Origin: an uncultured Clostridia bacterium
Lineage (GTDB): Bacteria; Bacillota; Clostridia; TANB77; CAG-508
Direction: 5' to 3'
NCBI GenBank assembly: GCA_944392805.1
Contig: CALXXZ010000005.1
Location: forward strand, 57,119-121,118
Length of the DNA: 64,000 nt
The notes under the pieces were generated by a model. The model was not told the origin of the DNA. It saw only the letters and a list, made by a program, of their open reading frames with translations, and did not search any database. Position 1 is the first letter of the stretch. Every line of letters begins with the position of its first letter. This document shows, one piece after another, positions 13,440-63,210 of this stretch. A program made the position numbers and the translations under genes.

Positions 13440-15200
13440 TTGAATAGACCAATATTAATAGTAATAATTGGTTATGTTATAGGTATATTATGGGGGCTAT
13501 ACTTACAAACAAGTATAGTCCTTTTATATGTATTTTTAGTATTAGTCTATATAATAATCAATTTAAAATATAAAAAAAGAGAATTTAAAATATTATCAAT
13601 CAAAAGACATTTTAGATATCTAAAATTAATATTCAAAATCAATACTATTTTAATAGTAATTATTTCATCATTTATATCAAATTCAATAATCAAATATCAA
13701 GAACATAAATATGAAAAAATATATCAATTAACAGAAGTAAATTTAACAGGCATAATTGTAAGTAATAAAGAGGAAAAAGAATATAAAAACAGATACAAAA
13801 TCAGATTAGAAAATGGAATAAATTTTTATTTAGACACAAACCCAAAAATCCAATTACAATATGGAGATAAAGTACATATAACAGGAAAATATCAAGAGCC
13901 ACAAGAAGCAAGAAATTATAAAGGATTTGATTATAAACAATATTTAAAAACATTAAAAATATATGGAACAATAAAAACAGAAAATGTACAAGTTTTAGAA
14001 AAAAATGCATATAATCCAATATTACAAATATCAAATAATATTTTTTTGAAGATAAAAGAAAATATAGCAAAAACATATAATGAAGAAACACAAGGACTGA
14101 TGCTAGGAATATTGTTAGGATATACGAAAAATATAGACGAAGAAGTAAAAGAAAATTTTTCAGAAAGTAATATATCACATGTATTATCAGTATCAGGAAT
14201 GCATGTATCATATATAATATTTTTAGTAACAAATAGTACTAAAAATATATTTGGAAAAAGAAGCAGTAAAATAATATCAAGTGTAGTTTTATTGTTGTAT
14301 ATGTTTATTACAGGATTTAGTTTATCAGTGGTAAGAGCATGTATAATGGGAATAATCTCATGTATGTCATTTGTATTATATAGAAAAAATGATACAATAA
14401 ATAATATTGCAATTTCGATTTTAGTAATATTGATAAATAATCCATTTAGTATAATAAGTTTAAGTTTTTTATTGACATATGGAGGAACTCTAGGAATATT
14501 GTTTTTTAAAAACAATATAGAAAAAGTTTTAAAAAATATAAAAATACGAAATAGAAAATGGAAATATATTTTTATAAAAATTCAAAGAAAATGTCAGCCA
14601 ATAATAGATTGTATTTCAGTATCAATTTCAGCGCAAATTGTAATTGCTCCAATCATACTGTGGAATTTTAATACAATAGGAATAGCCTTTTTGATTTGTA
14701 ATCTATTGTTAAACTTAGTAGTAGGAATAATTGTAATGGGAGGGCTAATACAAACTATAATTACATTTATAAATTTAAAATTAGGACATATAGTTGCTTA
14801 TTTTTTACAAATTCCAATATATATTTTGATACCAATTTCAAAATTAGGTACACTAATACCATTTGGAAATATTAAAGTTATCACACCATATTTAATTCAG
14901 ATTATAATTTATTATTTGCTTATAATAATTATAAATTATTTATATAAAATTTTTCATAAAAGAAATCTTACAGTAACTGAAAATAGAATAAAAAATTTAA
15001 TTCATGTTTTTAAATTCAAAATAAAACCATATAAAAAGAAGATTAAATATCAAATAGTTATTTGTATTTTTATATTATTTGCACTGAGCAAGTTTCCAAA
15101 AGATTTAAAAATATATTTTATTGACCAAACAACTCCAAATATGATACAAAGAATAATCGGGATATTTGAAAGAAAACCTTTGATTTCAAAGGAGATATAG
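13440..15200 (+). CDS. comEC: ComEC/Rec2 competence channel, truncated before its C-terminal MBL domain
   Basis: ComEC is the membrane channel that takes up single-stranded DNA in natural transformation. The frame opens with TTG immediately after the preceding stop. N-terminal spans (about 5-95), the extracytoplasmic OB-like part (LTGIIVSNK to VHITGKYQEP) and the polytopic competence domain with GMHVSYI are intact. Full ComEC proteins continue into a metallo-beta-lactamase domain that begins with a strand like YFIDVGQGD. Here YFID (to 15125) is followed by unrelated residues and a stop at 15198-15200, giving 586 residues. The natural C-terminal 200 or so residues are missing, which suggests disruption by the adjoining element. 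Confidence 0.88.
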   Translation: MNRPILIVIIGYVIGILWGLYLQTSIVLLYVFLVLVYIIINLKYKKREFKILSIKRHFRYLKLIFKINTILIVIISSFISNSIIKYQEHKYEKIYQLTEVNLTGIIVSNKEEKEYKNRYKIRLENGINFYLDTNPKIQLQYGDKVHITGKYQEPQEARNYKGFDYKQYLKTLKIYGTIKTENVQVLEKNAYNPILQISNNIFLKIKENIAKTYNEETQGLMLGILLGYTKNIDEEVKENFSESNISHVLSVSGMHVSYIIFLVTNSTKNIFGKRSSKIISSVVLLLYMFITGFSLSVVRACIMGIISCMSFVLYRKNDTINNIAISILVILINNPFSIISLSFLLTYGGTLGILFFKNNIEKVLKNIKIRNRKWKYIFIKIQRKCQPIIDCISVSISAQIVIAPIILWNFNTIGIAFLICNLLLNLVVGIIVMGGLIQTIITFINLKLGHIVAYFLQIPIYILIPISKLGTLIPFGNIKVITPYLIQIIIYYLLIIIINYLYKIFHKRNLTVTENRIKNLIHVFKFKIKPYKKKIKYQIVICIFILFALSKFPKDLKIYFIDQTTPNMIQRIIGIFERKPLISKEI

Positions 15201-15241
15201 CCTTTTCTAAATTTAAAGTGATTTAGAGAAGGCTCTTTTTT
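15199..15241 (+). terminator. Strong terminator at the broken comEC end
   Basis: AGCCTTTTCTAAAT at 15199-15212 pairs with ATTTAGAGAAGGCT at 15221-15234, with one G-T wobble. An 8-base loop lies between and a T-run from 15236. It overlaps the truncated comEC stop codon and shields the element from chromosomal transcription. Confidence 0.88.
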
Positions 15242-15360
15242 TTATGCCTGGATTTAAAGAAAGCAAGAAGTGAGGTATTATTATTTAATAGTGAAATTTT
15301 TATGTGTTGCAGTTAATTGGGGAGTTCAATGAAAAAATTATTGTATGCTATCATATAAAC

Positions 15361-15395
15361 AAATATAAATAAATATAAGCAAATATAAGCAAATT
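15361..15395. repeat. Tandem 10-bp repeats before the defence-island promoter
   Basis: Three head-to-tail decamers (AAATATAAAT, AAATATAAGC, AAATATAAGC) occupy 15361-15390 and a partial fourth follows. They end 3 bases before the -35 box at 15398. One helical turn per repeat suits side-by-side protein binding, for example by the small HTH protein encoded downstream. A UP-element-like role is the alternative. Confidence 0.6.
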
Positions 15396-15397
15396 AG

Positions 15398-15426
15398 TTG
15401 CTTTTTATACATATAAAAGTTATAAT
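15398..15426 (+). promoter_or_regulatory. Promoter of the methyltransferase operon
   Basis: TTGCTT at 15398-15403 and consensus TATAAT at 15421-15426 are separated by 17 bases. They lie about 40 bases before the HTH gene. The 15242-15360 stretch upstream holds no gene that I can support. Confidence 0.75.
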
Positions 15427-15465
15427 GTGTTATAGAGTATTTGAAAATATAAAAGTGAGGTTGTT

Positions 15466-15660
15466 ATGAAAAATATATTAGAAGATAATTACATAAGTAT
15501 TGAAGAAGCTGCAGTTTATCTAGGCATAAAAGTAGTTACTTTAAGAACTTGGATAAAATTAAAACATGATTTACCTGCGCATAAAATTGGAAAACAGTGG
15601 AAGTTTAAAAAGACAGAACTTGATGAATGGGTAAAAAGTGGTAAAAGTGCTTTAGAATAG
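15466..15660 (+). CDS. Small excisionase-type (HTH_17/MerR-like) DNA-binding protein
   Basis: The 64-residue product is a single winged helix: YISIEEAAVYLGIKVVTLRTWI is the helix-turn-helix, and HKIGKQWKFKKTELDEWV is the wing and second helix typical of the excisionase family. Such proteins bind short direct repeats and act as excisionases or as small regulators heading restriction-modification operons. The GTGAGG ribosome site precedes the ATG. The three methyltransferase genes follow at once (13 bases to the first). The tandem decamers upstream are the obvious candidate binding site. A role in autoregulation is inference. Confidence 0.8.
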   Translation: MKNILEDNYISIEEAAVYLGIKVVTLRTWIKLKHDLPAHKIGKQWKFKKTELDEWVKSGKSALE

Positions 15661-15672
15661 GTGGGTGAAATA

Positions 15673-16704
15673 ATGAGATTTATAGGTTGTAAAACATTAT
15701 TACTTGATAATATTAAGCAAGTAATAGATGAAAATGTAAAAGGTGCAGAATCATTCTGTGATATATTTTCTGGGACATCTACAGTTGCCAGATACTTTAA
15801 AAGATGGTATCAAGTATACTCTAATGATTTATTATATTTTTCATACGTGCTACAAAGAGGTACTATTCAAAACGATAAGTTACCAGCATTTAAAAAATTG
15901 AATAAAATAAAGAATATAAAAGATCCAATAGATTATTTTAATAGTCTTTCAAATTCAGATATGGAGAACTTGCCTCAAGAAAAAAGATTTTTTCAAAATA
16001 ACTATGCACCAACAGGTGGGAGAATGTACGTAAATGATGAAAATGCACTTCGTATTGATTATGCAAGAATTACCGTTGAAGATTGGCATAATGAAGGCTT
16101 AATAGATGACGATGAATACTTTTATCTTGTGGCTTGTATAGTTGAGGGAATTCCTTTTGTATCAAATACATCAGGAACGTATGGAGCTTTTCATAAAGAA
16201 TGGGAGAGAAGGTCTTATAAAAAGTACGAATTATATAGATTAGATGTATACCAAAATGGAAAGAAAAATAAATGCTATAATCAAGATGGCGTTGAATTAA
16301 TAAAGAAAATAAAAGGAGATATTTTATATATAGATCCACCTTACAATGGAAGACAATATCTTCCTAACTATCATGTCCTTGAGACAGCAGCAAAATATGA
16401 TTATCCTGAAGTTAGGGGAGTTACTGCACAAAGACCATATGAAAATAACAAATCAGATTTTTGTTTAAAAACTAAAGTAACTCAAGCATTTGAAGAATTA
16501 ATAAAAAATGCAAATTTTAAGCATATTATATTAAGCTATAGTACCGATGGATTAATGAAGGTTGAAGACATAGAAAGTATTATGAAAAAGTATGGTAAAG
16601 CTGAAACATTTAAAATATATTGGATACCATATAGAAGATATAAAAGTAGAGCTCAAGGAGATAAAGAAGAACTAAAAGAAATGCTTGTTTATATTGAAAA
16701 ATAA
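15673..16704 (+). CDS. DNA adenine methyltransferase, D12 (alpha) class, first of three
   Basis: This is an N6-adenine methyltransferase-like protein of 343 residues. The ATG at 15673 is used because GGTGGGTG precedes it; a GTG at 15661 is an alternative. The S-adenosylmethionine motif is FCDIFSGTSTVARYF at 28-42, where the usual F-x-GGG is altered to F-S-GT. The catalytic motif is DPPY at 221-224. The stretch between them, about 70-210, is long and should hold target recognition. The tail HIILSYSTDGLM is the motif VI-VIII region. Its place in a methyltransferase cluster opposite a nuclease-like gene suggests protection of one strand of a restriction site. Confidence 0.88.
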   Translation: MRFIGCKTLLLDNIKQVIDENVKGAESFCDIFSGTSTVARYFKRWYQVYSNDLLYFSYVLQRGTIQNDKLPAFKKLNKIKNIKDPIDYFNSLSNSDMENLPQEKRFFQNNYAPTGGRMYVNDENALRIDYARITVEDWHNEGLIDDDEYFYLVACIVEGIPFVSNTSGTYGAFHKEWERRSYKKYELYRLDVYQNGKKNKCYNQDGVELIKKIKGDILYIDPPYNGRQYLPNYHVLETAAKYDYPEVRGVTAQRPYENNKSDFCLKTKVTQAFEELIKNANFKHIILSYSTDGLMKVEDIESIMKKYGKAETFKIYWIPYRRYKSRAQGDKEELKEMLVYIEK

Positions 16705-16716
16705 AGGAGATGCGTG

Positions 16717-17592
16717 ATGAAGTATATAAAAAGTCCATTAAATTATACAGGTGGAAAATACAAATTGTTGAATTCACTTTTTGATATTTTTCCTAACAAT
16801 ATTAACACATTTGTTGATTTGTTTGCCGGAGGTTTCAATGTTGGAATTAATGTAAATGCAAATAAAATAATATGTAATGACCAAATTAATTATTTAATTG
16901 AATTATATGAATTTTTAGAAAAATCTAATACAGAAGAGGTAATTAATAATATTTATAAAATAATAAATGAGTTTCAACTATCAAAGTCAAATGCTGATGG
17001 ATATAATAAATTAAGAGAGAGGTATAATGAGAATAAAGATATATTGGATTTTTTAGTTCTTACTTTTTATGCATTTAATCATCAGATAAGGTTTAACAAT
17101 AGTCAAAAATTTAATACGCCTTTTGGAAAAGAAAGAAGTAGCTACAATGATTCAATAGAAAAAAATCTAAAAGAGTTTTGTAAGGCTTTAAAAGAAAAAA
17201 ATGTAGAATTTCATAATACTGACTTTTTAAGTGTTAATTTAAGTGATTTAAGCGATAAAGATTTAGTGTATTGTGATCCACCATACTTAATATCAACTGG
17301 TTCTTATAATGATGGAAAAAGAGGATTTAAAGATTGGACTGAAGTAGAAGAAAAACAATTACTTGGATTATTAGATGAGTTGAATTCTAGAGGAATAAAA
17401 TTTGCTTTATCAAATGTTCTGTACCATAAAGGCTTATCAAATGATTTATTAATTGAATGGAGTAAAAAATATAAGGTTCACTATATTGATAAATCATATG
17501 CAAATTGTAGTTATCATTTCAAAGAAAAAAATGCCAAAACAGTAGAAGTTGTTATAACTAACTTTGAAAGTGAGGAAAATGATAAATGCTAA
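16717..17592 (+). CDS. DNA adenine methyltransferase, D12 (alpha) class, second of three
   Basis: The 291-residue product has the full Dam/DpnM-type motif order: motif X LNYTGGKYKLL at 8-18, motif I FVDLFAGGFNVG at 32-43, and DPPY at 187-190. FALSNVL and the C-terminal NAKTVEVVITN follow. The start at 16717 has AAAGGAGA upstream; a GTG three bases earlier is possible. It starts 12 bases after the first methyltransferase and overlaps the third by 7 bases, so the three are one translational unit. Two different adenine methyltransferases side by side are typical of systems whose recognition site is asymmetric. Confidence 0.93.
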   Translation: MKYIKSPLNYTGGKYKLLNSLFDIFPNNINTFVDLFAGGFNVGINVNANKIICNDQINYLIELYEFLEKSNTEEVINNIYKIINEFQLSKSNADGYNKLRERYNENKDILDFLVLTFYAFNHQIRFNNSQKFNTPFGKERSSYNDSIEKNLKEFCKALKEKNVEFHNTDFLSVNLSDLSDKDLVYCDPPYLISTGSYNDGKRGFKDWTEVEEKQLLGLLDELNSRGIKFALSNVLYHKGLSNDLLIEWSKKYKVHYIDKSYANCSYHFKEKNAKTVEVVITNFESEENDKC

Positions 17593-18722
17593 ACAGAAAA
17601 TCTGTTATAAATAATGATGTTATAATAAAAAAATTAAGTGATGCTGGTATTGAAAACCCAGAAGAAGATATAAAAGAAATTAAAAAAATTGTAAATAAAT
17701 ATATACGCAACAAAATAAAAAATTCAAAACCAAAAGAAGATGAACAATACAAAGAAGGAATTCCTTTTTTTGATGTGTATCCTGATTATGATTTTACAAA
17801 GTTACCTTCTTGGGTAAAGCAGAATATTGAAGATGCAAGAATATATGGAAATTCTAAACAAATGGTAATACTTAAAGATGGTAGAAGATATCAGCTTAAT
17901 AATACATTAAATGATTTATCTGGAAAAGAATGGAATCATTTTATAAATTCTGTTATAAATACTAACTACACTACTAATGGTAAAGACTCATGTGCTCATC
18001 ATATTAGAAAAATACATCCAACTCCTAAACCACCAAAATTAATGAAAGAAATAATTGAATTTTTTTCTAAAGAAAATGAGATTATATTTGATTATTTTAT
18101 GGGAGTTGGAGGAACGTTATTAGGAGCGGGGATGTGTAGTAGAAGGGCAGTAGGGATTGACTTAGAAAGAAAATATATTGATGCATATAAAGAAGCGGCT
18201 ACTGAAATGGGTGTTCCTGTGTTTGATTGTGTAGAAGGCGACTGTATGGAAATACTAGCAGATGACAATAAAATGCAATCGCTTCTTGGAAATGAAAAAA
18301 TAAGTCTTGTTTTAATAGACCCACCATATGGAAATATGATGAGTAGAAAAAAAACAGGGGCGGATATAAAAGTGTATGGAAATGTTGCTACGCCATTTAC
18401 AAGTAGTGATAAGGATTTTGGAAATCTAGATATATATAATTTTTATGATAAATTGAAAGAATCAATTCAGCTTATATTACCTTATGTAAAAAAGAAGGGA
18501 TATGTTGTTATCTTTATAAAAGATTTACAACCAAATAAAAAAGAAACTAATTTATTACATGCAAAAATAGTTGAAACATTAAATGATATTCAAGAATTAA
18601 ATTATAAGGGGCTTAAAATATGGGCAGACCAAACAGCAAAACTTTTTCCTTATGGATATCCGTTCTCTTATGTTTCAAACCAAATTCACCAGTATATATT
18701 AGTATTTAGAAAAGAGAAGTAG
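17586..18722 (+). CDS. Permuted (beta-class) N4-cytosine/N6-adenine DNA methyltransferase, third of three
   Basis: In this 378-residue protein the motifs run X-I-IV: HPTPKPP at 144-150, FDYFMGVGGT at 168-177 and DPPYG at 245-249. This is the beta-class order, with the catalytic motif after the cofactor motif. Residues 1-55 are lysine-rich and helical. The part after DPPY (250-290) may contact DNA. DPPY, not SPPY, favours adenine, but beta-class enzymes vary. It is the last gene of the rightward operon. A two-way terminator separates it from the convergent nuclease gene. Confidence 0.88.
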   Translation: MLNRKSVINNDVIIKKLSDAGIENPEEDIKEIKKIVNKYIRNKIKNSKPKEDEQYKEGIPFFDVYPDYDFTKLPSWVKQNIEDARIYGNSKQMVILKDGRRYQLNNTLNDLSGKEWNHFINSVINTNYTTNGKDSCAHHIRKIHPTPKPPKLMKEIIEFFSKENEIIFDYFMGVGGTLLGAGMCSRRAVGIDLERKYIDAYKEAATEMGVPVFDCVEGDCMEILADDNKMQSLLGNEKISLVLIDPPYGNMMSRKKTGADIKVYGNVATPFTSSDKDFGNLDIYNFYDKLKESIQLILPYVKKKGYVVIFIKDLQPNKKETNLLHAKIVETLNDIQELNYKGLKIWADQTAKLFPYGYPFSYVSNQIHQYILVFRKEK

Positions 18723-18750
18723 AAATATAAATTCTGCTTCTCTTTTATTT
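18710..18750. terminator. Bidirectional terminator between methyltransferase and nuclease operons
   Basis: AAAAGAGAAGTAGAA at 18710-18724 pairs with TTCTGCTTCTCTTTT at 18732-18746 (one wobble). A- and T-runs at the ends let it work on both strands. The left arm includes the end of the third methyltransferase gene. Confidence 0.88.
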
Positions 18751-18751
18751 A

Positions 18752-20149
18752 TTATGAATCAAACACTACACCTAAACCATTAAATGCAAATTTTATACAT
18801 TCTGGGGCATTATTATTTATTATTATACGACCATCACTAGCAAGATAAAAAAGAACTTTAGAGTGAGGCAGTTTTCTACAATCGCCGCCAAAAATACTTA
18901 AACATCTCATTATTGTTACATCTCCATAACTAGGATAGATATATTCTTTTTCAATACTGTCATAGTTTTCAATTTCTTCAATTCCTTGGTTTATAGTTGA
19001 TAGCATTTTTCCTTCTACAAGGATTATATAATTCGTTTTTTCATCGTATAAAACAACATCTGGAAGGTAAAGATTAATACCATTTTTATCTTTTTTAGGC
19101 AAAGTTATTTGTGCACCAGTTTTTGAAAAGAAATATCCTCTTTCACAACCAGCATGATTTTCATAGATTCCTTTCATACCTGTATACATTGTTTGCATAT
19201 GAAGAAGAATATCAGCCATTTTTTCAGAGTGTCGCTCATAATGCCAGTATAATTCTGGCATTGCTACTTGTGGTGGCATTTGAATTTGGTCTAATTTCAT
19301 ATTTAAAATATTACATATGTATAGAAATTTATTTTTTCCTTTTGTTCTATCTACATATTTTTGAGACACACCATGTAGTGTAATAATAATATCTTTATCC
19401 CAGCCTAGTTTTCTTATACAGGCGGAAATCATAGATAGAGCACCAATGTTTGGATCATGCCCTATATTGCCAGCATCGGCAGGTTTTGCAAGTCTACCTG
19501 ATATTTCAATTCGTTCATCATATTTTGTTATAGTAATAGGAACATTTCCAGCGGGTGGCTTTCTCATTTTTGATTTGAAATTGATTAAATCATCGATATT
19601 TTTAAAGGGCTTAAACCATTTAGATGTATCTTTTCCAACAACAGTAACACCCAAAGTTAATAAAATATTTGTTCCAAAAATACTTGTATCAGATGGTTTT
19701 TTTTCTTCACGTGCTGCTAGTTCTTCATTGTATAACATATAAAGTTTAACGTCCTTGTAATAAGGAGTAATATAAACAAATTTAGATCCCCTTTGATAGA
19801 CACCTGTATTTCTTGATTCATCATCGCTTGTTTTTGTTTCTTCTATAGCCATGATTAAATTATCTGAAGAACTACCTTCACTAGGTTCTTCTATTTGCTT
19901 AAAAAGTAGGAAGTCTAAGAAACTAGAACTACCACTTACTGTTTTTATATAAATGTTTTTAGCTTTTTGGACACTCATATTTTCTACAATATATACAAAT
20001 TTAAAATATCCGTTTTCAATAAGTGGTCGGATTTTTATATCTTCGTTTATTGTTAAGGTGTCGTTAAAATCTTTACAATACATTTCCATAATTTGTTTAA
20101 CTACTGAAGGTTTTGGTCTTTCTTCAGTAAGAAGCCATAAATTTTCCAT
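18752..20149 (-). CDS. Probable type II restriction endonuclease with two candidate PD-(D/E)XK sites
   Basis: The 465-residue product matches no family I can name with certainty. Near the C-terminus, LPDVVLYD with Asp364, a short turn, and IILVEGK (Glu379-Lys381) form a clear PD-(D/E)XK nuclease motif. Near the N-terminus, LIMAIEETK (Glu103/104, Lys106) followed by VYQRGSKFVY could be a second such centre; some type IIS enzymes carry two active sites. It is the last gene of the leftward operon, three bases after the XRE gene, with GAGGAGG as ribosome site. Its position opposite three methyltransferases is the main argument for a restriction role. Confidence 0.7.
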   Translation of the reverse strand: MENLWLLTEERPKPSVVKQIMEMYCKDFNDTLTINEDIKIRPLIENGYFKFVYIVENMSVQKAKNIYIKTVSGSSSFLDFLLFKQIEEPSEGSSSDNLIMAIEETKTSDDESRNTGVYQRGSKFVYITPYYKDVKLYMLYNEELAAREEKKPSDTSIFGTNILLTLGVTVVGKDTSKWFKPFKNIDDLINFKSKMRKPPAGNVPITITKYDERIEISGRLAKPADAGNIGHDPNIGALSMISACIRKLGWDKDIIITLHGVSQKYVDRTKGKNKFLYICNILNMKLDQIQMPPQVAMPELYWHYERHSEKMADILLHMQTMYTGMKGIYENHAGCERGYFFSKTGAQITLPKKDKNGINLYLPDVVLYDEKTNYIILVEGKMLSTINQGIEEIENYDSIEKEYIYPSYGDVTIMRCLSIFGGDCRKLPHSKVLFYLASDGRIIINNNAPECIKFAFNGLGVVFDS

Positions 20150-20152
20150 TTT

Positions 20153-20377
20153 TTATTCCTCCTCTTTATTATTACTTTCTTTTACTGTTTCTATTATATC
20201 TTCAAGATTGCATTCTAATGCTTCACATATTTTTAGAAGAACATCTGTGGTCACATTTGCACCTTTTCCGAGTTTTGCTATAGACGCAGGACTAATGTTT
20301 GCAATTTTTCCTAAATCCTGCTTATTCATTCCTTTATCAATTAATAATTTCCATAATTTGTTATAACTAATATGCAT
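20153..20377 (-). CDS. Small XRE-family regulator (controller-protein type)
   Basis: The 74 residues are essentially one Cro/C1-type helix-turn-helix: LWKLLIDKGMNKQDLGKIA, then SPASIAKLGKG as the recognition helix region, and VLLKICEALEC as the last core helices. A Lys/Glu-rich tail follows. It has the size and place of a restriction-modification controller protein. It lies between the helicase (12 bases upstream) and nuclease genes (3 bases downstream). Its likely targets are the paired 16-bp repeats at 24175-24211 by the operon promoter; that link is inference. Confidence 0.88.
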   Translation of the reverse strand: MHISYNKLWKLLIDKGMNKQDLGKIANISPASIAKLGKGANVTTDVLLKICEALECNLEDIIETVKESNNKEEE

Positions 20378-20389
20378 AAATTAACCTCC

Positions 20390-23149
20390 TTATTTTTTAT
20401 CAATATAGTTTTTTAAAATTTCAACATCTTTACTTATGTCCCTAGGTTTAATTCTATTTATAACTTTTTCTTCTACTTCTGGTGTCCAGTAGATTTTTAG
20501 TTTTTCTCTTGCTCTTGTTATAGCAGTATAGAAAACATTATGCGTTACTAATTCCTCAACTTCATCAGTTACTACTATTTTGACGGATTCAAACTCTAAT
20601 CCTTGTGCTTTATGTATGGAAACTGCATAAGCAACTTGAAATGGAACTATAGTTCCAAAATCTTCTCCTTCTTCATCAGCACTTTTAAGTTTACGTACAT
20701 AAAATCTAATAAGAGATTTCTCTTCTTCCTCATTATTTTCAAGAAGGTCAAGACCTGTACCAAACGTATCTCTTTCATATATTAATTTAGGAATTTCAAT
20801 ATCAAATCGGATGCGTTCAGTAGGGGTATCTACATCAACGACTTTTACGTCACGGATTATTCCTTTCATATTGTTATATATGACTGGTCTAAATCTATCT
20901 GAATCAAGAAATAGTATAGGATCGCCAACTTTATATTGTTGAACATCCCAAGTAACTGCTGGGTTTGGATTACTTTCTTGCAAGAACCTATTAATATTAT
21001 TTATACCGTATAGTCCATCATAATTAAGGCATAGAATTGCCTCGCCAGGTTCAAGTGAAGAAAGTAATGTTTCATCTACTTTTAGAGAATAACTTTCTCT
21101 TTCAATTACTTCCTTAGCTGTATCATCCATGCATCTAACTTTATCCCAAAGCTCTAGCAGATGTTTGTTTTTAGTTCTATGAGGTTTTTTTAGTTCAAAA
21201 ACAGCAGTTTCGGGTAAGAACGCCTTTAGTACTGAGAACCAGTTTCCAAATTGTATTGCATCAATTTGATAAGTATCTCCAACTAATAAAAGCATTTCAA
21301 AATTTGCTTTTTGTAGTATTTCAACCATATCTTTATTGCTGACAGTACTACATTCATCAATGACCAATAATTTATAATCAATTGAAGAAGTTTGGTGCTT
21401 AAAACTTTCGATTGTAGAAAAAGTAGTATTTTCTGCATCAATTTTTCTAATCAAGTTTTCTTTTGCTGGATTTGTTTGAGTTAAATATAGTTTAGGCTCA
21501 TCGTTTAGAAAGTGTGAAACATGGTTTATTAATGTGGATTTTCCTACACCGGCAGAACCATATATTACACCAACTTTTGAATCAGAAAATATCTGTCTAA
21601 TAATATCTTTCTTTTCATCACAATCAATTTCATAACCATCAAAGAGTAGCCAGAAGTCAACATCAGCACTATAGTTTTCTATACCAGATTCAGCTAATTC
21701 TTGTAATCTTTTAATTATGGTGCAAGTATCTAGCTTATAATCATTTATAAATACTTGATTATGTTCTAGCATTAAATCACCTTCAGGTCTATGACCAGAG
21801 TAAAGATTTTCATTATATGTTTTTATAAGCTCTGGATAATCAGGGTAATTTTCCAATTCACTAATATCAGTGAATAATTGTCCTTTGCCTTCTGTATTAT
21901 TTTCTATAAATCTTGCAAATAATTCATGACGATTACCATTACAAGGAATGCACTCAAATATTGCAGATAATTTTGGATTATGTCCAAGAGGAGAGCGATT
22001 AAATGGTAAGTCATCAAATTGCTTACTACCAATATCTAAATACAAGTTAGATAGATAGCTGTTTGGAGCTTTAACCCATTCTTCATAATATTTACTATAG
22101 TATCCTGACGAATATTGACTTTTTATTATGACATTATTCATATTATAAAGTAGGTATCTTAATATATTTTTTCCACTCTTGCCACTTAATATTAAATTTC
22201 TGCAATAATCTAATATTGGAATAAATATAGGATTTTTAAGGCTACTTTTCCATTTGAGAGTAATATCATTATATGCAGCATCTGGAAAGTCTATTAGATT
22301 ATTTAAGGTGTATTTTGTTTTAGTAAGAAATTCACAAATTAATCGTTGTTCTGGATAACCTACTTTTATTTTATCTCCATTTATTATTGATATGAAATTT
22401 TGAAATTCACAATCTCTTATTGAAACTTCCCAACCATCAATAACGATGATAGGCATTGTTTTGCCTAATATTTCGATAGTTTCATTTATAAGGTGAAATT
22501 TAGATGCATAGTTACTTTTGACTGGAAGTTTTGTAAAAGCAATAACTCTGTTTGTCTTAGATTTGTTCTTCCTGTCATCAATTGGAGTAAATGTAACTTC
22601 ATAATATATCTTTCTATCTACAAATAGAGGTTTGATTTTTTGGATATAATATTTATCTTTACTATCTGTGTGTAATGCTGCAGGATGATGTTCTATTTTT
22701 TCTGCAATTTTTTTATAGTATTCCTGTAGGGTATCATCTAAATGTAAAGGAAATTTATCTAAATTATGCAGTACCTCAATACCAAAGTGTTGACTAAGAA
22801 GATTTTTGGTTTCTAGTAAGTACTGATAATACTTTAACATTAAACGTTCTGATCCATCTTCATCTAAAGTGTATTGCGTAGTTACAACTTGTAGATAGTT
22901 ACGAAACTTATATAGGGTATATAGGTCACTATTTACTTGGCAATACTCGATTGCCTTAGTTAAATTTTCTTCGTTAATGTCGATTTCTTTGCCATTGGCA
23001 TAAAACTTAAGAATTACATGATTAATGAATTTTATTAGTTGTTCTAATATATCTTGTGAAATTGCACCACGAGAAGAGTCTTCGATTTCATCTAAGTGTC
23101 TACATATAACACTATCTATTCTTTTTATAGAACTATCAATTGTTGGCAT
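20390..23149 (-). CDS. Large SF1 (RecD/UvrD-like) helicase with unassigned N-terminal half
   Basis: This is a 919-residue ATP-dependent helicase. The motor is in the C-terminal part: Walker A GSAGVGKST at 531-539, Walker B LLVIDEC at 594-600, motif III LLVGDTYQIDAI at 622-633, motif V VSIHKAQGLEFE at 843-854 and motif VI FYTAITRAREK at 873-883. This is the RecD/AAA_30 plus UvrD_C_2 arrangement. Residues 1-500 contain no motif I recognise; they are a mix of long helices and strands and could recognise DNA or a partner. It starts 15 bases after the unknown gene and precedes the XRE gene. Co-transcription with a nuclease-like gene suggests translocation-dependent restriction. Confidence 0.85.
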   Translation of the reverse strand: MPTIDSSIKRIDSVICRHLDEIEDSSRGAISQDILEQLIKFINHVILKFYANGKEIDINEENLTKAIEYCQVNSDLYTLYKFRNYLQVVTTQYTLDEDGSERLMLKYYQYLLETKNLLSQHFGIEVLHNLDKFPLHLDDTLQEYYKKIAEKIEHHPAALHTDSKDKYYIQKIKPLFVDRKIYYEVTFTPIDDRKNKSKTNRVIAFTKLPVKSNYASKFHLINETIEILGKTMPIIVIDGWEVSIRDCEFQNFISIINGDKIKVGYPEQRLICEFLTKTKYTLNNLIDFPDAAYNDITLKWKSSLKNPIFIPILDYCRNLILSGKSGKNILRYLLYNMNNVIIKSQYSSGYYSKYYEEWVKAPNSYLSNLYLDIGSKQFDDLPFNRSPLGHNPKLSAIFECIPCNGNRHELFARFIENNTEGKGQLFTDISELENYPDYPELIKTYNENLYSGHRPEGDLMLEHNQVFINDYKLDTCTIIKRLQELAESGIENYSADVDFWLLFDGYEIDCDEKKDIIRQIFSDSKVGVIYGSAGVGKSTLINHVSHFLNDEPKLYLTQTNPAKENLIRKIDAENTTFSTIESFKHQTSSIDYKLLVIDECSTVSNKDMVEILQKANFEMLLLVGDTYQIDAIQFGNWFSVLKAFLPETAVFELKKPHRTKNKHLLELWDKVRCMDDTAKEVIERESYSLKVDETLLSSLEPGEAILCLNYDGLYGINNINRFLQESNPNPAVTWDVQQYKVGDPILFLDSDRFRPVIYNNMKGIIRDVKVVDVDTPTERIRFDIEIPKLIYERDTFGTGLDLLENNEEEEKSLIRFYVRKLKSADEEGEDFGTIVPFQVAYAVSIHKAQGLEFESVKIVVTDEVEELVTHNVFYTAITRAREKLKIYWTPEVEEKVINRIKPRDISKDVEILKNYIDKK

Positions 23150-23164
23150 TTATTATCATCCTTT

Positions 23165-23986
23165 CTAAAAATCACTATCATTCCAATCATCTAACAAAAC
23201 ATCATATGGGATGTTTTTGTCATATTTTTCTGGATGAAGTTTAACATATAAATTTCTTATTTTTATTCTTTGACTTTTGATTACACTTGTATTTGAGTTA
23301 CATGAAATGAAACTTGTACTTAATTCATCAAGAACACCTAAAATTCCAAATACATCTGATTTTAGCATTGGATTTACAAAATCATTAGATTTTTCCTTCC
23401 ATTTTTCTTGATATAACTTTTTAATTTTGTTAGGAATACTCATGTCTACTAAATAGGATGCATAGTCTCCTCTAATTAAAGTAAGCATGATTTCCTCATA
23501 ATCTGAATTAAATTCAGTAAGCAATTCATTATCAGTTTCTGTATAAGGGAAACTAGCAGCAGTCTGCTCAACGGGAATATTAAGTGGTTCATCTTTATTA
23601 GATGAGCTTTTCCTCTGAGTAGCTGCTGCTTTTTTTATGATTTCATCAAAGCAACTAGCTATTTTGTAATTAATATTTTGTAGGTCTATTTCATCAATAC
23701 TTCCTGAAAAAGCATCACAAAGTTTCTCTGAAACTGAGTCTTCAAAATTATCAAGGAAAGATACAAAGTTCTCTAGGTCAGCAACAGGAGATATTTCTCT
23801 AGCTATTCCATTTATTGTTGATCTTCCATTGTAATAGGCTTTAAAACTATCATCTGATTTATTTTCAATTACTGTAGAGTTATCTTCTCCAATCATAGCT
23901 ATAAAGAGTTTCCTAGTAAATTCAACTGTGTTATCTGAACCACCAATGATTGGTTTTAGTAATTTAGCGAAATCTGAAAAAGTCAT
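23165..23986 (-). CDS. Unknown protein, first gene of the leftward defence operon
   Basis: I do not recognise this 273-residue protein. It has no signal peptide, membrane segment, cysteine pair or nucleotide-binding motif. The N-terminal 110 residues look helical. A Ser/Lys/Glu-rich linker (about 120-140, RKSSSNKDE) separates them from a C-terminal part with YEEIMLTLIRGDYASYL, a basic KKLYQEKWKEKS stretch, and a final IRNLYVKLHPEKY. The start has GAGGAG upstream and is closest to the operon promoter. Being co-transcribed with a helicase and a nuclease, it could be a structural or recognition subunit. Confidence 0.7.
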   Translation of the reverse strand: MTFSDFAKLLKPIIGGSDNTVEFTRKLFIAMIGEDNSTVIENKSDDSFKAYYNGRSTINGIAREISPVADLENFVSFLDNFEDSVSEKLCDAFSGSIDEIDLQNINYKIASCFDEIIKKAAATQRKSSSNKDEPLNIPVEQTAASFPYTETDNELLTEFNSDYEEIMLTLIRGDYASYLVDMSIPNKIKKLYQEKWKEKSNDFVNPMLKSDVFGILGVLDELSTSFISCNSNTSVIKSQRIKIRNLYVKLHPEKYDKNIPYDVLLDDWNDSDF

Positions 23987-24140
23987 TAATTATCTCCTCA
24001 TTTCTTGTATTACCGAAACATCCCGAAGACTACCCATGACTACCCGAGATTTTATAGCAAAGCTGTTAAAATCTTAAGTGTAAAAAGCAGAAGTAATAAC
24101 TTCATAGATAGCACGATATGATTTTTAAATTGATGAAAAT

Positions 24141-24146
24141 ATTATA
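24141..24146 (-). promoter_or_regulatory. -10 box of the leftward defence operon
   Basis: A consensus TATAAT lies on the minus strand, 155 bases before the first gene. The -35 region (TGGTTT at 24169-24164, 17-base spacer) is poor. With the repeat pair just upstream, this fits a promoter that needs an activator or is modulated by one. Confidence 0.45.
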
Positions 24147-24451: not shown

Positions 24452-24988
24452 ATGAAAAGTCATAAAACAAAACAAGAAAACAGGGGTACTTATACCTACA
24501 TCTTTGACGATGGAACTAAAATCACAATTAAACCAGGAGAGGAAGGAGTAACAGAGGAGTTCATCAAAAAATTACATTCTTTAGATGATTCAGAGGTTTA
24601 TTACAACCATAAGAATTGGCATAGACCTATATCTGAAAAAGAAAAACAAGATATTAAGGATTGGGAAGAAAAACACCCAGGCGAAAAATATCAAGAGATA
24701 TGGAACTTATCTATTGATTCAATCTTTGATGAGGAAGGAAATCAGGACAAGTGTATCTATCTTGCAGATAATACGACTGCTGTAGAAGATACATCTGATG
24801 AAGTAGATAGGTTAAGAGAAGTTGTTTCAATGATGACTGAAAAACAACAAAGAGTATATGAACTTCATTTTCTAGAAGGTTATTCACTTACTGAAGTAGC
24901 CGCAATTATGGGAACTTCTATACCAAGTGTTCATAAGCACAAGGAAAAAATTTTGAAGTTTATAAAAGAAAATTTCAAGAGAGGTTAA
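24452..24988 (+). CDS. Phage sigma-70 region-4-like regulator
   Basis: The first rightward phage gene encodes 178 residues. The C-terminal part, from about 120, is a sigma region 4 helix-turn-helix: MTEKQQRVYELHFLEGYSLTEVAAIMG, then TSIPSVHKHKEKILKFI. Residues 1-110 contain a strand-rich N-terminus (YTYIFDDGTKITIKPGEEG) and an acidic linker with no sigma region 2. It is therefore probably not a full sigma factor but an activator using the same fold to direct transcription. The ribosome site AAGGGAGG is strong. Confidence 0.8.
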   Translation: MKSHKTKQENRGTYTYIFDDGTKITIKPGEEGVTEEFIKKLHSLDDSEVYYNHKNWHRPISEKEKQDIKDWEEKHPGEKYQEIWNLSIDSIFDEEGNQDKCIYLADNTTAVEDTSDEVDRLREVVSMMTEKQQRVYELHFLEGYSLTEVAAIMGTSIPSVHKHKEKILKFIKENFKRG

Positions 24989-36430: not shown

Positions 36431-36442
36431 GAGGTGGAGAAA

Positions 36443-37702
36443 ATGTCTAGAACAACAACAGAAATGCAACTAATATCGACTGATAAATTAGTGCCTTATG
36501 TGAATAATGCCAGAACACACTCAGCTGAGCAAATTATAAAGCTTCGTTCTTCACTTCGAGAATTTGGTTTTGTCAATCCAATCATAATTGATAGAGATTT
36601 CAATGTGATTGCGGGTCATGGAAGATTGATGGCAGCAAAAGAAGAAGGAATAAATGAAGTACCTTGTGTGTTTGCTGACTTCTTAACCGATGCTCAAAAG
36701 AAAGCATACATTTTAGCAGATAACCGTATGGCTATGGATGCAGGTTGGGATGAAGAATTATTAAAAATAGAAATGGAAGAATTACAAAATCTAGGATATG
36801 ACTTAGGTTATACAGGATTTGATGAAAAAGAACTAGCTGATTTATTTGGAATAGATGATAAAGAAGTAAAAGATGATGATTTTGATTTAACTGCTGCCCT
36901 TGAAAAAGCAAGTTTTGTTGAAAGAGGGGATGTGTGGTTTGTAGGAAAGCATAAATTGATGTGTGGTGATGCAACATCAAGTGAAGATGTAGCAAAACTT
37001 ATGGAAGATAAAAAAGCAAACTTAATCTTAACCGACCCACCTTACAATGTAGCTTTCAAAAGTTCAGATGGATTAACAATTCAAAATGATAGTATGAAAA
37101 ATAATGATTTTTATAAGTTCTTATTTTCATCATTTAAGAATATGGCAGAGCATTTAGAAAATGGTGGAGCTGCTTATATATTCCATGCTGATACAGAAGG
37201 CTTGAATTTTAGAAAAGCATTTATTGATGCAGGATTTCATTTAGCAGGTTGTTGCATATGGGTAAAAGATAGTCTAGTACTTGGACGTTCTGATTATCAA
37301 TGGCAACATGAACCTATTTTATATGGATTTATGCAAAATGGAAAACATCCATGGTATTCAGATAGAAAGCAAACAACTATCTGGAATTTTGATAAACCTA
37401 AAAAGAACTCAAATCATCCAACTTCTAAACCACTTGATTTATTAGCTTATCCAATAAACAATTCTACTCAAGCTAATGCAATTGTTATAGATACATTTGG
37501 TGGTAGTGGATCAACACTTATGGCTTGTGAACAAATGAATAGAATTTGTTACACAATGGAACTTGATGAAAAGTATGCATCAGTTATTTTAAGAAGATAT
37601 GTTGAAGATACTAACGATAGTGAAAATGTGTATGTAATTAGAAATGGTGAGAAGATACTGTACAAAGATTTAGTTAAAGAGGTAGGAGTTAATAATGGAT
37701 AA
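36443..37702 (+). CDS. ParB-like nuclease domain fused to beta-class DNA methyltransferase
   Basis: The start is at the ATG at 36443 after GGAGGTGG; a GTG at 36434 is possible. The 419 residues begin with a ParB/Srx fold (about 1-100: TDKLVPYVNNARTHS, IAGHGRLMAA). A linker follows, then an N6-adenine/N4-cytosine methyltransferase with TDPPYNVAF near 195, NHPTSKPLDLLAYPI, and FGGSGSTLMACE as the SAM motif. This fusion is common in Firmicutes prophages. It methylates phage DNA, perhaps against host restriction. It overlaps the C5 methyltransferase by 8 bases. Confidence 0.92.
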   Translation: MSRTTTEMQLISTDKLVPYVNNARTHSAEQIIKLRSSLREFGFVNPIIIDRDFNVIAGHGRLMAAKEEGINEVPCVFADFLTDAQKKAYILADNRMAMDAGWDEELLKIEMEELQNLGYDLGYTGFDEKELADLFGIDDKEVKDDDFDLTAALEKASFVERGDVWFVGKHKLMCGDATSSEDVAKLMEDKKANLILTDPPYNVAFKSSDGLTIQNDSMKNNDFYKFLFSSFKNMAEHLENGGAAYIFHADTEGLNFRKAFIDAGFHLAGCCIWVKDSLVLGRSDYQWQHEPILYGFMQNGKHPWYSDRKQTTIWNFDKPKKNSNHPTSKPLDLLAYPINNSTQANAIVIDTFGGSGSTLMACEQMNRICYTMELDEKYASVILRRYVEDTNDSENVYVIRNGEKILYKDLVKEVGVNNG

Positions 37703-39068
37703 AGAACTAACACTTGCAAGTTTATTTGATGGAAGTGGTGGTTTCCCATTAGGTGGAATGTTAGCAGGTATTAAACCTGTATGGAGTTCAGAGGTAGATC
37801 CATTTGCAATTAGAGTAACTACTAAAAGATTATCTAAAGTAAAGCATTATGGTGATATTACTAAAATAAAAGGAAATGAAGTAGAACCCGTAGATATAAT
37901 TACATTTGGAAGTCCATGCCAGGATATGTCGATAGCGGGTAAAAGAGCAGGATTAGACGGAAGTAGGTCTAATCTTTTTTATGAGGCAATAAGAATTGTA
38001 AAAGAAATGAGGTGTGCAACAAATGGAGAAAAACCAAGATATATTGTTTGGGAAAATGTCACAGGAGCCTTCTCCTCAAACAAAGGAGATGACTTCAAAA
38101 GTGTCCTTGATGAAATCTGCAAAGTCAAACATCAAGAAATGTCTATTCCTAAACCTACAAAGTGGGAACAAGCAGGAGCAATCATGGGAGATGATTTCTC
38201 AATCGCATGGAGAGTTTTTGATGCTCAGTTTTGGGGAGTTCCCCAGAGAAGAAATCGTATCTACCTTGTCGCAGATTTTGGAGGAAACAGTGCCTCAAAA
38301 ATATTATTTGAGTCAGAGGGCTTGTCAGGGTATTCTAAAGAGAGCTTTAAGTCGTGGCAAGACTCTACCAGAAACATTGAGGATAGCGTTAGAAAATCAA
38401 GCAAGTTAGATTTGTTTGAAAACCATTCACAAGATTTAAGATATAAAGGACCGTTAGATATAGCACCAACAATACTTTCAACTTATGGTACTGGTGGTAA
38501 TAATCAACCATTTGTTGTTCATTCAAAAAACTATGACATAAGATTAACATCAGAAGGAACAAAGAATGCAAGAAACAATGTTTATGAAACTGAAACATCA
38601 AGAACCCTTGATACAAATGGGAATTTTCCTAATTCAAATCAAGGTGGAGTTGCAATTGTTTATTCAACAAGTAAGAGTTCATTTCATACAAGAGCAAGTG
38701 AAAATTTAGCTAATACATTAATAGCAACTGATTATATGGATCCACCAATAGTAAATGATAAGTTGAAAGTAAGAAGACTTACACCAAAAGAATGTGCAAG
38801 ACTTCAAGGTTTTCCTGATTGGTGGTGTGATAATTTGGAAACAAAAGAACCAACCAAAGAAGATATTGAATATTGGAGAGAAATATTTAATGAAAGCTCA
38901 AAAGCAGAAGGGAAAAATAAAAGAGAAAAAACCGATAATCAAATAATTAAATGGCTAAAAAATCCTCATTCTGATTCAGCTGAATATAAATTATGGGGAA
39001 ACGGTGTAGCACTTCCTTGTGTCTACTTTGTTTTATCTGGAATTGAATATTATGCACACATGACTTGA
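37695..39068 (+). CDS. DNA (cytosine-5-)-methyltransferase
   Basis: The 457-residue protein has the full C5 order: motif I LASLFDGSGGFPLGG, motif IV FGSPCQDMS with the catalytic cysteine, motif VI VWENVTGAF, motif VIII VPQRRNRIYLV, and motifs IX-X near the C-terminus (RRLTPKECARLQGFPDWW and GNGVALP). The target-recognition region is long (about 200-330), with poly-Thr/Asn stretches. It is coupled to the previous methyltransferase. The end of the gene overlaps the first 33-bp promoter repeat. Confidence 0.95.
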   Translation: MDKELTLASLFDGSGGFPLGGMLAGIKPVWSSEVDPFAIRVTTKRLSKVKHYGDITKIKGNEVEPVDIITFGSPCQDMSIAGKRAGLDGSRSNLFYEAIRIVKEMRCATNGEKPRYIVWENVTGAFSSNKGDDFKSVLDEICKVKHQEMSIPKPTKWEQAGAIMGDDFSIAWRVFDAQFWGVPQRRNRIYLVADFGGNSASKILFESEGLSGYSKESFKSWQDSTRNIEDSVRKSSKLDLFENHSQDLRYKGPLDIAPTILSTYGTGGNNQPFVVHSKNYDIRLTSEGTKNARNNVYETETSRTLDTNGNFPNSNQGGVAIVYSTSKSSFHTRASENLANTLIATDYMDPPIVNDKLKVRRLTPKECARLQGFPDWWCDNLETKEPTKEDIEYWREIFNESSKAEGKNKREKTDNQIIKWLKNPHSDSAEYKLWGNGVALPCVYFVLSGIEYYAHMT

Positions 39069-62918: not shown

Positions 62919-62978
62919 TCAATGCAGCTAATTGAAATTAATTTTTAAGATAATATAAAGTAGAAGGGAAAATTTAAA

Positions 62979-63182
62979 ATGAACAAACTTAAAACTGGAA
63001 TTTCCTTAATAATATTAGGAAATATATTATATTTATCATATATATTTTTTACTAGTAATGAAACAAGTTCGTTTGGAGAATTTACAAAAGGATTATTACT
63101 AGGATTATCAGTAGGTACTAATTTAGTAGGAATAATATTATCAATTATTTATGTAGCAAAAGAGAAAAAAGAAAAAGAATAA
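62979..63182 (+). CDS. Small two-span membrane protein
   Basis: The 67 residues have hydrophobic segments at about 7-27 and 37-58 and a lysine-rich C-terminus (KEKKEKE). GAAGGG lies upstream. No family is recognised. Confidence 0.65.
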   Translation: MNKLKTGISLIILGNILYLSYIFFTSNETSSFGEFTKGLLLGLSVGTNLVGIILSIIYVAKEKKEKE

Positions 63183-63210
63183 ATTTTCGATATAATTTGG
63201 AGGTGAAAAG

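Follow-up and report, generated by a model that had tools for sequence, protein, structure and literature searches.

Do eight closely packed genes, in which restriction-modification (RM) genes converge on an operon with a helicase, form one defence system? In the usual view, Type II restriction requires a nuclease and a methylase alone. In the window, which is the whole stretch of 64,000 nucleotides analysed here from an uncultured Clostridia bacterium, the eight genes were found at the places and on the strands given by the initial annotation, and the gaps of 15, 12 and 3 bases reported for the leftward operon are exact. The view that the island is of restriction type, and that its SF1 helicase is unusual, is borne out. 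The further proposal of one eight-gene system did not stand as a fixed set, whereas a link between helicase and restriction did, although not to one RM system. In our preferred reading, with a probability of about 0.55, the locus would be a swappable Type II RM cassette in a conserved temperate-phage operon, combining first-line RM with an interchangeable second-line module.

Layout of the prophage island

The eight genes constitute two modules of one prophage sitting in comEC of its gut bacterial host. The 5' part of comEC (13440-15200, forward strand; 586 codons) is interrupted by the prophage, and the lost end of the gene (DVGQGDSTLIV) was found at the start of a different contig of the same genome. 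When the host of the window is compared with that of L018, the differing region stops near 15114; a direct repeat marking attR was sought in the window and none longer than 11 bases was found. Module 1 comprises a small HTH protein, two D12 methyltransferases (MTases), a third MTase and a PD-(D/E)XK-like restriction endonuclease (REase), and module 2, the chassis, comprises the protein U273, an SF1B RecD-like helicase and an XRE regulator. The MTases are read from the attachment-site end of the slot and the REase continues the chassis operon, following the XRE gene after 3 bases.

The left border of the cassette, with the leader of the MTase operon, lies at 15308-15465 (forward), the shared stretch on the att side stopping at 15308 (L019) or 15350 (L020); the right border, at the REase start and XRE end, lies at 20138-20180, the shared chassis beginning at 20138 (L019) or 20180 (L020). 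The two-way terminator proposed between the convergent operons was recovered as a 15-bp stem at 18710-18746, common to both, with an RNA fold of -19.1 kcal/mol (z -4.8). Divergent from the chassis operon is a phage sigma-factor-like gene (24452-24988, forward; phrog_1740, 1.1e-12), which is retained in several relatives. The likely -10 box of the chassis operon (TGATATAAT; 24141-24146, reverse) is conserved in relatives, and the leader motifs CTGATATA and TGATATAA were each found in 16 of 22 leaders.

Composition of the restriction-modification cassette

The MTase operon opens with a small HTH_17 protein of excisionase/MAD1-like type (15466-15660, forward; Pfam HTH_17, 1.6e-15), whose match to the NCBIfam MAD1 model (3.7e-13) is under that model's cut-off. 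It is followed by two D12 adenine DNA methyltransferases, M1 (15661-16704, forward; MethyltransfD12, 5e-40; DPPY at 225) and the Dam-like M2 (16714-17592, forward; MethyltransfD12, 3.6e-39; DPPY at 188), and in both an FxG-like motif precedes DPPY, in keeping with the alpha class assigned to them. In PADLOC, M1 covers positions 1-338 (438 bits) and M2 positions 361-644 (371 bits) of PDLC03287, so that together they match the two halves of a single 646-residue MTase profile, as a double D12 MTase. The beta class assigned to the third enzyme, M3 (17586-18722, forward), is doubtful: it matches N6_N4_Mtase (2.4e-23) and, in full length, PDLC03391 (460 bits), but its motif order is permuted, DPPY (245) coming after the FxG-like DYFMG (169), and residues 38-203 align to the C-terminal half of the N6_N4_Mtase profile. 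The Type II REase of 465 residues (18752-20149, reverse; PADLOC REase_II PDLC03445, 1.9e-59) had been described as a two-site nuclease; a single PD-(D/E)XK-like motif was found (PD..EGK, residues 363-381).

With DPPY-bearing MTases (M1, M2 and M3) and an adjacent REase, features of Type II RM are present, and module 1 is, as judged from sequence, a Type II RM cassette. An asymmetric recognition site, which had been suggested from the two adenine MTases, fits the presence of two D12 enzymes. M.FokI-type systems have a fused double D12 MTase for an asymmetric site. The window resembles the FokI type in its double D12 MTase and in the REase adjacent to the MTases, whereas its M1 and M2 are separate genes and a third, N6_N4-type MTase is added. 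Its REase matches PDLC03445. In L011 the REase next to the fused D12 MTase is of another family, PDLC03463, which is also the one matched by the REase termed type IIs in the phi1605 record. The helicase does not accompany the cassette in Streptococcus phage Javan105 or in the examined stretches of viral contigs L149 and L150, and a reduced form lacking both third MTase and helicase is found on Psychrobacter and Bartonella plasmids.

A constant chassis with changing restriction systems

The chassis helicase (20390-23149, reverse) matches PDC-S53 (PDLC05035; PADLOC E 0, 1206.6 bits, residues 1-917), presumably a single-gene defence candidate judging by its name, and phrog_325, annotated as Dda-like (5.8e-147). 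It carries the SF1 motifs GSAGVGKS, DECS, GDTYQ, QGLE and TAITRA, and its model (pLDDT 85) has RecBCD RecD and RecD2 as top PDB matches; by sequence and by model it is RecD/RecD2/Dda-like. In comparison to PDC-S53, matched in full length, the window adds U273, XRE and a changing RM cassette. A literature search found no paper naming PDC-S53 and none pairing hsd with 'RecD-like helicase'. The XRE regulator (Cro-C1 HTH_26; 20153-20377, reverse; HTH_26, 2.5e-19) matches the repressor-like phrog_3; it is present in 28 of the 39 U273-helicase loci and missing in 11, and the gene after it begins at most 20 bases on in 18 of 22 loci.

The co-occurrence of the gene set, which the initial annotation had proposed to examine, was recovered for the full set in a second genome (L018) and for the U273-helicase pair in 39 loci, while the RM part varies; these loci are homologous rather than independent, some being near-copies or one element counted twice (L004/L024, L031/L111, L029/L101, L008/L011, window/L018, L006/L022, L021/L026 and L035/L036). 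Their comparison has shown, at the level of gene content, that the U273-helicase(-XRE) chassis is constant while unrelated RM systems replace the REase and MTases. Among 20 loci examined, the 14 with a recognised REase have 14 different best-matching REase families, with the limit that L010 matches MspI, the family of L027, weakly and below the cut-off, and the two may be remote kin. The REase lies within the helicase operon in 12 of these 14 loci and in the opposite operon in L011 and L099. Of the 28 U273-helicase loci with 3 kb or more downstream, 26 have RM genes. Six profiles, which were seeded from the study loci and iterated over loci and controls, recognised 24 of them, and PADLOC/BLAST added L011 and L009. 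Among the 24, L033 and L034 depend solely on an HsdR-like gene; L098 is counted through a Dcm gene nine genes off, beside its Vsr. In L029 and L032 the U273-helicase pair is present with no RM gene by the six profiles.

Near-identical prophages diverge precisely at the XRE/REase junction. Between the window and L018, a tract of 8.1 kb with 3 mismatches spans the cassette, XRE, helicase and 3' end of U273, the flanking backbone being mostly 2-8% different; L020 has a near-identical backbone, yet its helicase differs by 6-8% along with the cassette. Helicase and RM are lost together in L183, a natural loss, and in L146, L150 and NatCom_9287 RloC occupies the place of the helicase between a U273-like protein and RM genes. 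U273-helicase-XRE is regularly found without the MTases of the window, and these MTases with the REase are found without the helicase, the outcome that the initial annotation had named as refuting one system. The constancy of the helicase, U273 and the small regulator suggests that they may serve many different restriction systems.

The helicase family is also present on plasmids and in chromosomal hsd operons of several phyla, and members without U273 often lie in such Type I operons. RM genes lie within 6 kb of 16 of 41 U273-less helicases, compared with 1 of 19 in the control (Fisher p=0.006; removing two near-copies gives 14 of 39 and p=0.012). The control stretches surround RecD2 genes that came from the phylum search and are not matched by taxon, and the genome loci are a non-random set, the 80 most similar among 557. 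Two intact helicases without U273 came from the phylum search, G023 and G245, and these coincide with loci L081 and L097. Across all 76 U273-less loci, which include duplicates (L040/L089/L092 and L088/L093) and the cut loci L046 and L112, 55 RM genes were counted within 6 kb, and 53 of them share the strand of the helicase. On the other hand, 21 of the 49 U273-less loci with no RM gene within 6 kb list no same-strand operon neighbour, some of the contigs being cut and the listing omitting four near-copies; hence the helicase can do without RM. In an analysis of 52 of the 77 listed neighbours, other RM-less helicases adjoin Gabija, LmuA or reverse-transcriptase-type proteins, so clustering in defence islands may explain part of the RM link.

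U273 (23165-23986, reverse; 273 residues; phrog_6948) had been regarded as unknown, which no longer applies to residues 1-156, where it matches LmuA (PDLC03857, 1.5e-14). It has an LmuA-like N-terminal domain (about residues 1-123) and a conserved C-terminal domain (about 150-273), which occur apart in relatives, and its model is all-helical with two domains. As the fold matched no solved structure in the PDB, DNA or RNA binding by U273 is a guess; a BFVD search gave only two matches at E < 0.001, to siphovirus proteins with identities of 30% and 24%, neither of them characterized. A nuclease role was rejected on the all-helical model and the lack of a Pfam match. The RloC-linked protein of L150 also bears the C-terminal domain, so this domain is not strictly helicase-specific.

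Just upstream of the U273 ribosome site lie partly decayed 10-bp direct repeats of GGTAG type (24010-24049, reverse; best period 10, score 0.67, p=0.007). Taken alone they are weak evidence (two exact units with 3 matches, a value reached by 12 of 100 shuffles), and the case therefore rests on comparison across loci. Among the leaders, such repeats were found in 24 of the 28 from chassis loci, in 7 of 10 from further LmuA-N genes and in 9 of 252 controls by a criterion (best period 10, score 0.6) that was set after the first leader results were known, the p-value treating genes as independent; L201, L203 and L206, among the ten genes tested, were known before it was fixed, and five of the seven new ones pass. 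XRE was rejected as the reader of the repeats: L098 and L100 carry XRE yet have 9-bp repeats, LmuA-N genes with no XRE in the examined stretch have 10-bp repeats, and no array is seen in L149 (p=0.74), where U273 is absent and an XRE gene opens the operon.

Several known systems were considered as identities of the island. U273 shares with Lamassu the LmuA PDLC03857 domain in its N-terminal part, to which the match is confined, and no LmuB (SMC-type ATPase) is among the PADLOC matches listed for the eight proteins. Hachiman HamA/HamB are absent from those listed for the window proteins, while the relatives L044 and L201 weakly match the N-terminal region of HamA1. In contrast to Lamassu and Hachiman, no nuclease domain was seen in U273, and the helicase, of RecD-like type, has no match to any HamB model. 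No DUF2290 match was obtained in the eight proteins with Pfam. The signature genes are BrxC/PglX/PglZ for BREX, DrmA/B for DISARM and DruE for Druantia, and none of these is among the listed PADLOC matches of the eight proteins, which for M3 cover the top 25 of its 47 families, in agreement with the initial annotation. On these Pfam and PADLOC matches BREX, DISARM, Druantia, Hachiman and Helicase+DUF2290 were rejected.

Proposed mechanism, alternatives and implications

In the proposed mechanism, the MTases, transcribed from the attachment-site end, would mark host and prophage DNA, and the REase, as the last gene of a long operon, would be expressed late under operon control and cleave unmarked incoming DNA. 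U273 may bind its own 10-bp leader repeats through the LmuA-like domain and autoregulate the operon, and its C-terminal domain would pair it with the helicase. The helicase would then act as a second line, on DNA ends or on stalled forks that restriction, or a phage escaping it, has left behind. This second-line slot is probably interchangeable, with anticodon-nuclease-type RloC replacing the helicase in related phages. RloC and PrrC are guards linked to RM, RloC being an ATPase-type anticodon nuclease; in the window the helicase holds the place that RloC takes in relatives.

The helicase cannot be the motor of the window REase alone, as fourteen REase families share it. It is hardly credible that the helicase joins each REase, as an integral subunit, in a new Type II-like nuclease-motor enzyme: the REase is indeed co-operonic with it in 12 of 14 loci and helicase and cassette travel together in recombination tracts, but one motor would need to suit all fourteen families, kin of the window REase and MTases lack it in Javan105 and on plasmids, and the opposite operon holds the REase in L011 and L099. 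We also consider it improbable that U273-helicase-XRE is a phage life-cycle module, for lysogeny control or DNA replication and repair, with RM as cargo in a safe lysogenic operon. In favour of such a role, the operon lies beside the att site at one end of the prophage and is divergent from the sigma factor and the lytic genes, XRE is repressor-like and phrog_325 labels the helicase as Dda-like; against it stand the helicases on plasmids and in chromosomal hsd operons of several phyla and the LmuA domain of U273. Moreover, RloC stands where the helicase would in related phages, and the helicase is therefore not an essential phage function.

A more serious, though still unlikely, alternative is that U273 and the PDC-S53 helicase make a stand-alone anti-phage system, with RM as ordinary, functionally unlinked cargo behind it in a shared prophage slot. 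Many genomes and plasmids have the helicase with no RM nearby and the RM cassette also occurs without it; further, defence hotspots are described for P2/P4, Vibrio and Bacillus (PMC9122126), where a fixed prophage or satellite position holds variable defence cargo including RM. The chassis is likewise a fixed prophage position with variable defence cargo. However, its slot holds RM in 26 of 28 loci rather than the mix of defence types described for P2/P4 hotspots, most of the cargo shares an operon with a constant helicase, and this helicase moves with the cargo in recombination. The short gap after XRE (18 of 22 loci) and the RM association seen again for U273-less helicases, inside hsd operons, also speak against two unlinked systems.

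More tentatively, temperate phages of gut Firmicutes may possess a general restriction platform in which an adaptor whose LmuA-type N-terminal domain reads a private 10-bp array in its own leader is combined with a docked, interchangeable second-line effector (SF1B helicase or RloC), a regulator and a slot for any RM system, the helicase being a broadly compatible partner also of Type I hsd operons in other phyla. If this is true, an overlooked dedicated motor may assist restriction by many systems. A helicase-adaptor operon retained across changing RM systems, together with a helicase family recurring inside Type I operons, would imply a second-line motor shared by many RM systems. The repeat rule would provide a handle on the switching of LmuA-type defence genes. 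The slot would be a natural screen in which every phage tries a different RM system on one chassis, and because each phage pairs the chassis with another RM system, the role of the helicase can be tested directly by cassette swaps.

Island genes and their prophage setting

The eight genes of the island (15466-23986), with their strands, gaps and convergent terminator, all match the description in the initial annotation. In the family searches the small HTH gene was found to be HTH_17 and the small regulator (XRE) HTH_26. The two MethyltransfD12 adenine methyltransferases, M1 and M2, each match one half of a single PADLOC profile of 646 aa (PDLC03287), and the third, M3, is of N6_N4 type (PDLC03391) with permuted motif order. 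The nuclease (REase) matched PDLC03445 in PADLOC (1.9e-59) and carries a single PD..EGK motif; its earlier description as two-site was not borne out. The helicase matched the PADLOC candidate PDC-S53 over its full length. The 273-aa protein U273 (23165-23986, minus strand) matched a LmuA profile only in the profile's N-terminal part (1.5e-14), and also phrog_6948.

The island forms one end of a prophage which interrupts the host gene comEC near 15115-15200. The N-terminal part of comEC (13440-15200) stops at the prophage, and the remainder (DVGQGDSTLIV..., metallo-beta-lactamase end) opens a different contig of that genome (G000 contig C7, L198). The phage genes start with a sigma factor gene from 24452 (phrog search), behind which come genes for nuclease, polymerase, terminase and tail proteins, with two serine recombinases at 58607-61505, these latter genes being judged by reading translations. 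Reading also gave two more DNA methyltransferase genes in the lytic part at 36434-39068 (ParB/N6_N4-like, 422 aa; Dcm-like, 457 aa), and serine hydrolase and flavodoxin-like genes at 61842-63921, on the contig-end side of the recombinases.

Near relatives of the prophage occupy comEC in three other genomes (loci L018, L019 and L020), and five other relatives (L006, L022, L026, L027, L028) have an rlmD/rumA-like gene, by reading, near the place where cassettes exchange (cluster c6). Among phage records, U273 was found in phi1605 (Erysipelothrix), TPDSL_ph1 (Terrisporobacter) and three NatCom gut phages classed under Ca. Heliusvirales, and the helicase in phi1605, TPDSL_ph1 and, as a fragment, a third record. 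NatCom_3870 (PV036417.1) at its start and NatCom_28775 (PV036440.1) at its end break off about 56 bases past the U273 match; both are titled complete genome, yet lack helicase and cassette, and these ends are perhaps an assembly break at the variable region.

Constant chassis and changing cassettes

U273 precedes the helicase in 39 loci, some of which are the same element counted twice, and a window-like XRE completes this chassis in 28 of them; the 11 without XRE are truncated or more distant loci (L029, L031-L036, L101, L104, L111, L113). Relative to the window, the helicase ranges from 100 down to 55% identity and U273 from 98 down to 24%. When the downstream count was restricted to the 28 of 39 loci with at least 3 kb downstream, six profiles recognised a restriction-modification (RM) gene in 24, with L033 and L034 resting on an HsdR-like gene alone. 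Two further loci count as positive: L011 has REase PDLC03463 plus a 607-aa methyltransferase annotated as dam-type, and L009 has a gene related to the PDLC03402 REase gene of L012. L029 and L032 showed no RM gene by the six profiles.

An REase family was recognised in 14 of the 20 loci whose slot proteins were scanned (the window and 19 others), with 14 different best matches: PDLC03445 (window), 03456 (L019), 03537/ICEA (L020), 03470/Eco47II (L022), 03402 (L012), 03564 (L007), 03486 (L021), 03517/MspI (L027), 03416/SinI (L028), 03403 (L010), 03438 (L005), 03463 (L011), 03473/SacI (L104) and LlaJI (L099). The slot proteins of L098 gave a Vsr match, and the family scan gave no REase match in those of L023, L024, L031, L044 and L100. 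The REase lies on the helicase strand in 12 of the 14, being opposite in L011 and L099. In 18 of 22 loci the next same-strand gene, its start picked mechanically, begins at most 20 bases past XRE. L035 and L036 instead carry a Type I hsd set, which lies on the opposite strand.

Many cassettes hold repair-type genes between XRE and REase, namely NUDIX in eight loci (cluster c2) and HhH-GPD glycosylase in seven (c3), both clusters being named from one tested member each. NUDIX, HhH-GPD glycosylase and Vsr genes come after XRE in L022 (13030-14138) and its relatives and in L098 (12964-13377), and the methyltransferases of such cassettes are mostly m5C-type. This gives the impression of mismatch repair genes moving along with the slot.

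The borders of the exchange were located in the comEC relatives. L019 aligns with the window rightwards from 20138 and on the left only at 15103-15308, and L020 rightwards from 20180 and on the left only at 15109-15350, with other cassettes between the aligned stretches. L018 has three mismatches to the window across 15195-23296 (16317, 18979, 23012); most 500-base steps of its backbone past 23297 show 2-8% divergence (range 1-15%), and comEC of the two hosts diverges by about 35-40%. Nearly every step of the L020 backbone from 23133 onwards is 98-100% identical, but the helicase gene is 6-8% divergent. By these tracts of L018 and L020, cassette, XRE and helicase moved as one, and the U273/helicase junction was one exchange border.

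The cassette also occurs without the helicase. Streptococcus phage Javan105 has M1 (81%), M2 (80%), M3 (66%) and REase (72%), no helicase, and an AbrB-like small gene (by reading) replacing the HTH gene; L149 and L150 have all four genes at 60-77% identity, and Psychrobacter and Bartonella plasmids have the order M2-M1-REase at 38-54%. Within the class (391 genomes searched) the REase is confined to the window and G554 (57% in G554), the latter copy adjoining an XRE-like and, by reading, a DUF262-like gene within the 4.4 kb examined. In L149 (3415-7607) XRE (57%) is followed by a TcmP-like protein, radical SAM and DUF262-like proteins and then the window-type REase; L059 and L061 too have radical SAM relatives (by reading), there ahead of the helicase.

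The helicase is rare: the phylum search, covering 398 genomes, gave strong matches in G000, G023 and G245 and broken ones in G377 and G136. A genome scan gave relatives at 557 loci, of which the best 80 were used. Without U273, RM genes lie within 6 kb in 26 of 76 loci from all collections and, where the helicase has 5 kb of flank on each side, in 16 of 41, against 1 of 19 control stretches around RecD2, scored over their whole length (Fisher p=0.006; 0.012 without two near-copies). The helicase strand carries 53 of the 55 RM genes within 6 kb at the 76 loci, mostly hsd, which immediately precede the helicase in L050, L052, L085, L090 and L109 and lie to either side of it in L064 and L084. Genes of hsd type are present in G023 and G245 (loci identical to L081 and L097), and G377 has an hsdR fragment; the RM profile scan found no RM gene near the broken helicase of G136. 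Counting against the association, 50 of the 76 loci gave none within 6 kb. At 21 of 49 examined loci lacking both RM and U273, some on cut contigs, no same-strand neighbour is listed, and the 52 neighbours scanned at RM-less loci include Gabija, LmuA, reverse-transcriptase and methyltransferase matches.

U273 domains and leader repeats

The AlphaFold model of U273 has two helical domains (mean pLDDT 81) whose relative placement is not fixed, given a pTM of 0.47, and its PDB fold search returned no match. The domains are independent of each other. The C-terminal domain is fused to an unrelated N-terminal domain (LCGG...) in L098 (8738-9979) and L100 (8389-9540) and is present in two copies in L004, L044 and L099, and the N-terminal domain stands by itself in NatCom_9287. 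The LCGG... domain also precedes RloC in Javan105 and L150; neither Pfam nor PADLOC gave it a match in L098, L146 or L150. The N-terminal domain of U273 belongs to a LmuA family; PDLC03857 was matched over full length in G594 (L205, 399 bits) and over about residues 1-142 in five other genome proteins with differing C-terminal halves (L201-L204, L207).

A direct-repeat array lies directly upstream of the U273 ribosome site. Leaders of U273 genes with the LmuA-like N-terminal domain are related in sequence and have a best period of 10 with a score of at least 0.6 in 24 of 28 (misses L005, L010, L021, L031); in L098, L100, L146 and L150, whose genes encode the other N-terminal domain, the best period is 9, at p<0.05 in L098 and L146 only. 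In ten genome LmuA-N genes (L201-L210), with no helicase or XRE within the fetched 2-4 kb, 7 of 10 leaders passed against 9 of 252 controls (chance about 1e-8, assuming independence). By the time the criterion was set, three of these genes had already been looked at, and 5 of the 7 others pass; L203 has period 10 with a score of 0.50, and L204 and L207 fail. The leaders of NatCom_9287 (0.70) and NatCom_3870 (0.63) also qualify. As the repeat unit varies by family and the period is constant, the array accompanies the LmuA-like N-terminal domain.

RloC at the helicase's place

RloC is a guard that acts when restriction is in trouble. In Javan105, L150 and NatCom_9287 a protein of about 216-246 aa and RloC occupy the helicase's place, and mainly for this reason the helicase may be read as a second line. 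RloC is named in the Javan105 record; the three RloC proteins are 40-45% identical to each other, and RloC matched PDC-S06 best in PADLOC, PrrC being weaker. In NatCom_9287 the order is RloC, XRE (72% identical to that of the window), two annotated methyltransferases and, not directly adjoining, an endonuclease annotated as a restriction enzyme. Proteins adjoining RloC share similar stretches in L150 (563-2543; TQNGNSNTQIGHVENY and TQTGDNNTQIAYVQNY) and L146 (2824-4409; NQSGSGVNIGQATN and EQSGQGTNIGLAQN), which may resemble paired amyloid-signalling motifs.

A natural deletion in L183 (1058-2027), a single case, runs from within U273 to the last helicase codons, and the RM cassette is gone too, the RM profiles having no match across its 5.5 kb. 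The start of the NUDIX gene is retained there, and a tyrosine-integrase-like gene (by reading) is nearby.

No paper naming PDC-S53 was found in the literature search, with subscription journals mostly outside it. The arrangement appeared in no title or abstract found for RecD-like or SF1 helicases with RM, hsd or prophage, nor in those for prophage RM hotspots, RloC, or NUDIX/glycosylase with RM. PMC9122126 concerns prophage defence hotspots.

RM in a prophage slot together with a conserved helicase-adaptor operon is a well supported architecture (probability about 0.9), and a mechanism common to chassis and RM is inferred with a slight leaning in its favour. RM in a prophage slot is of a known kind, and here a conserved helicase-adaptor operon accompanies it.
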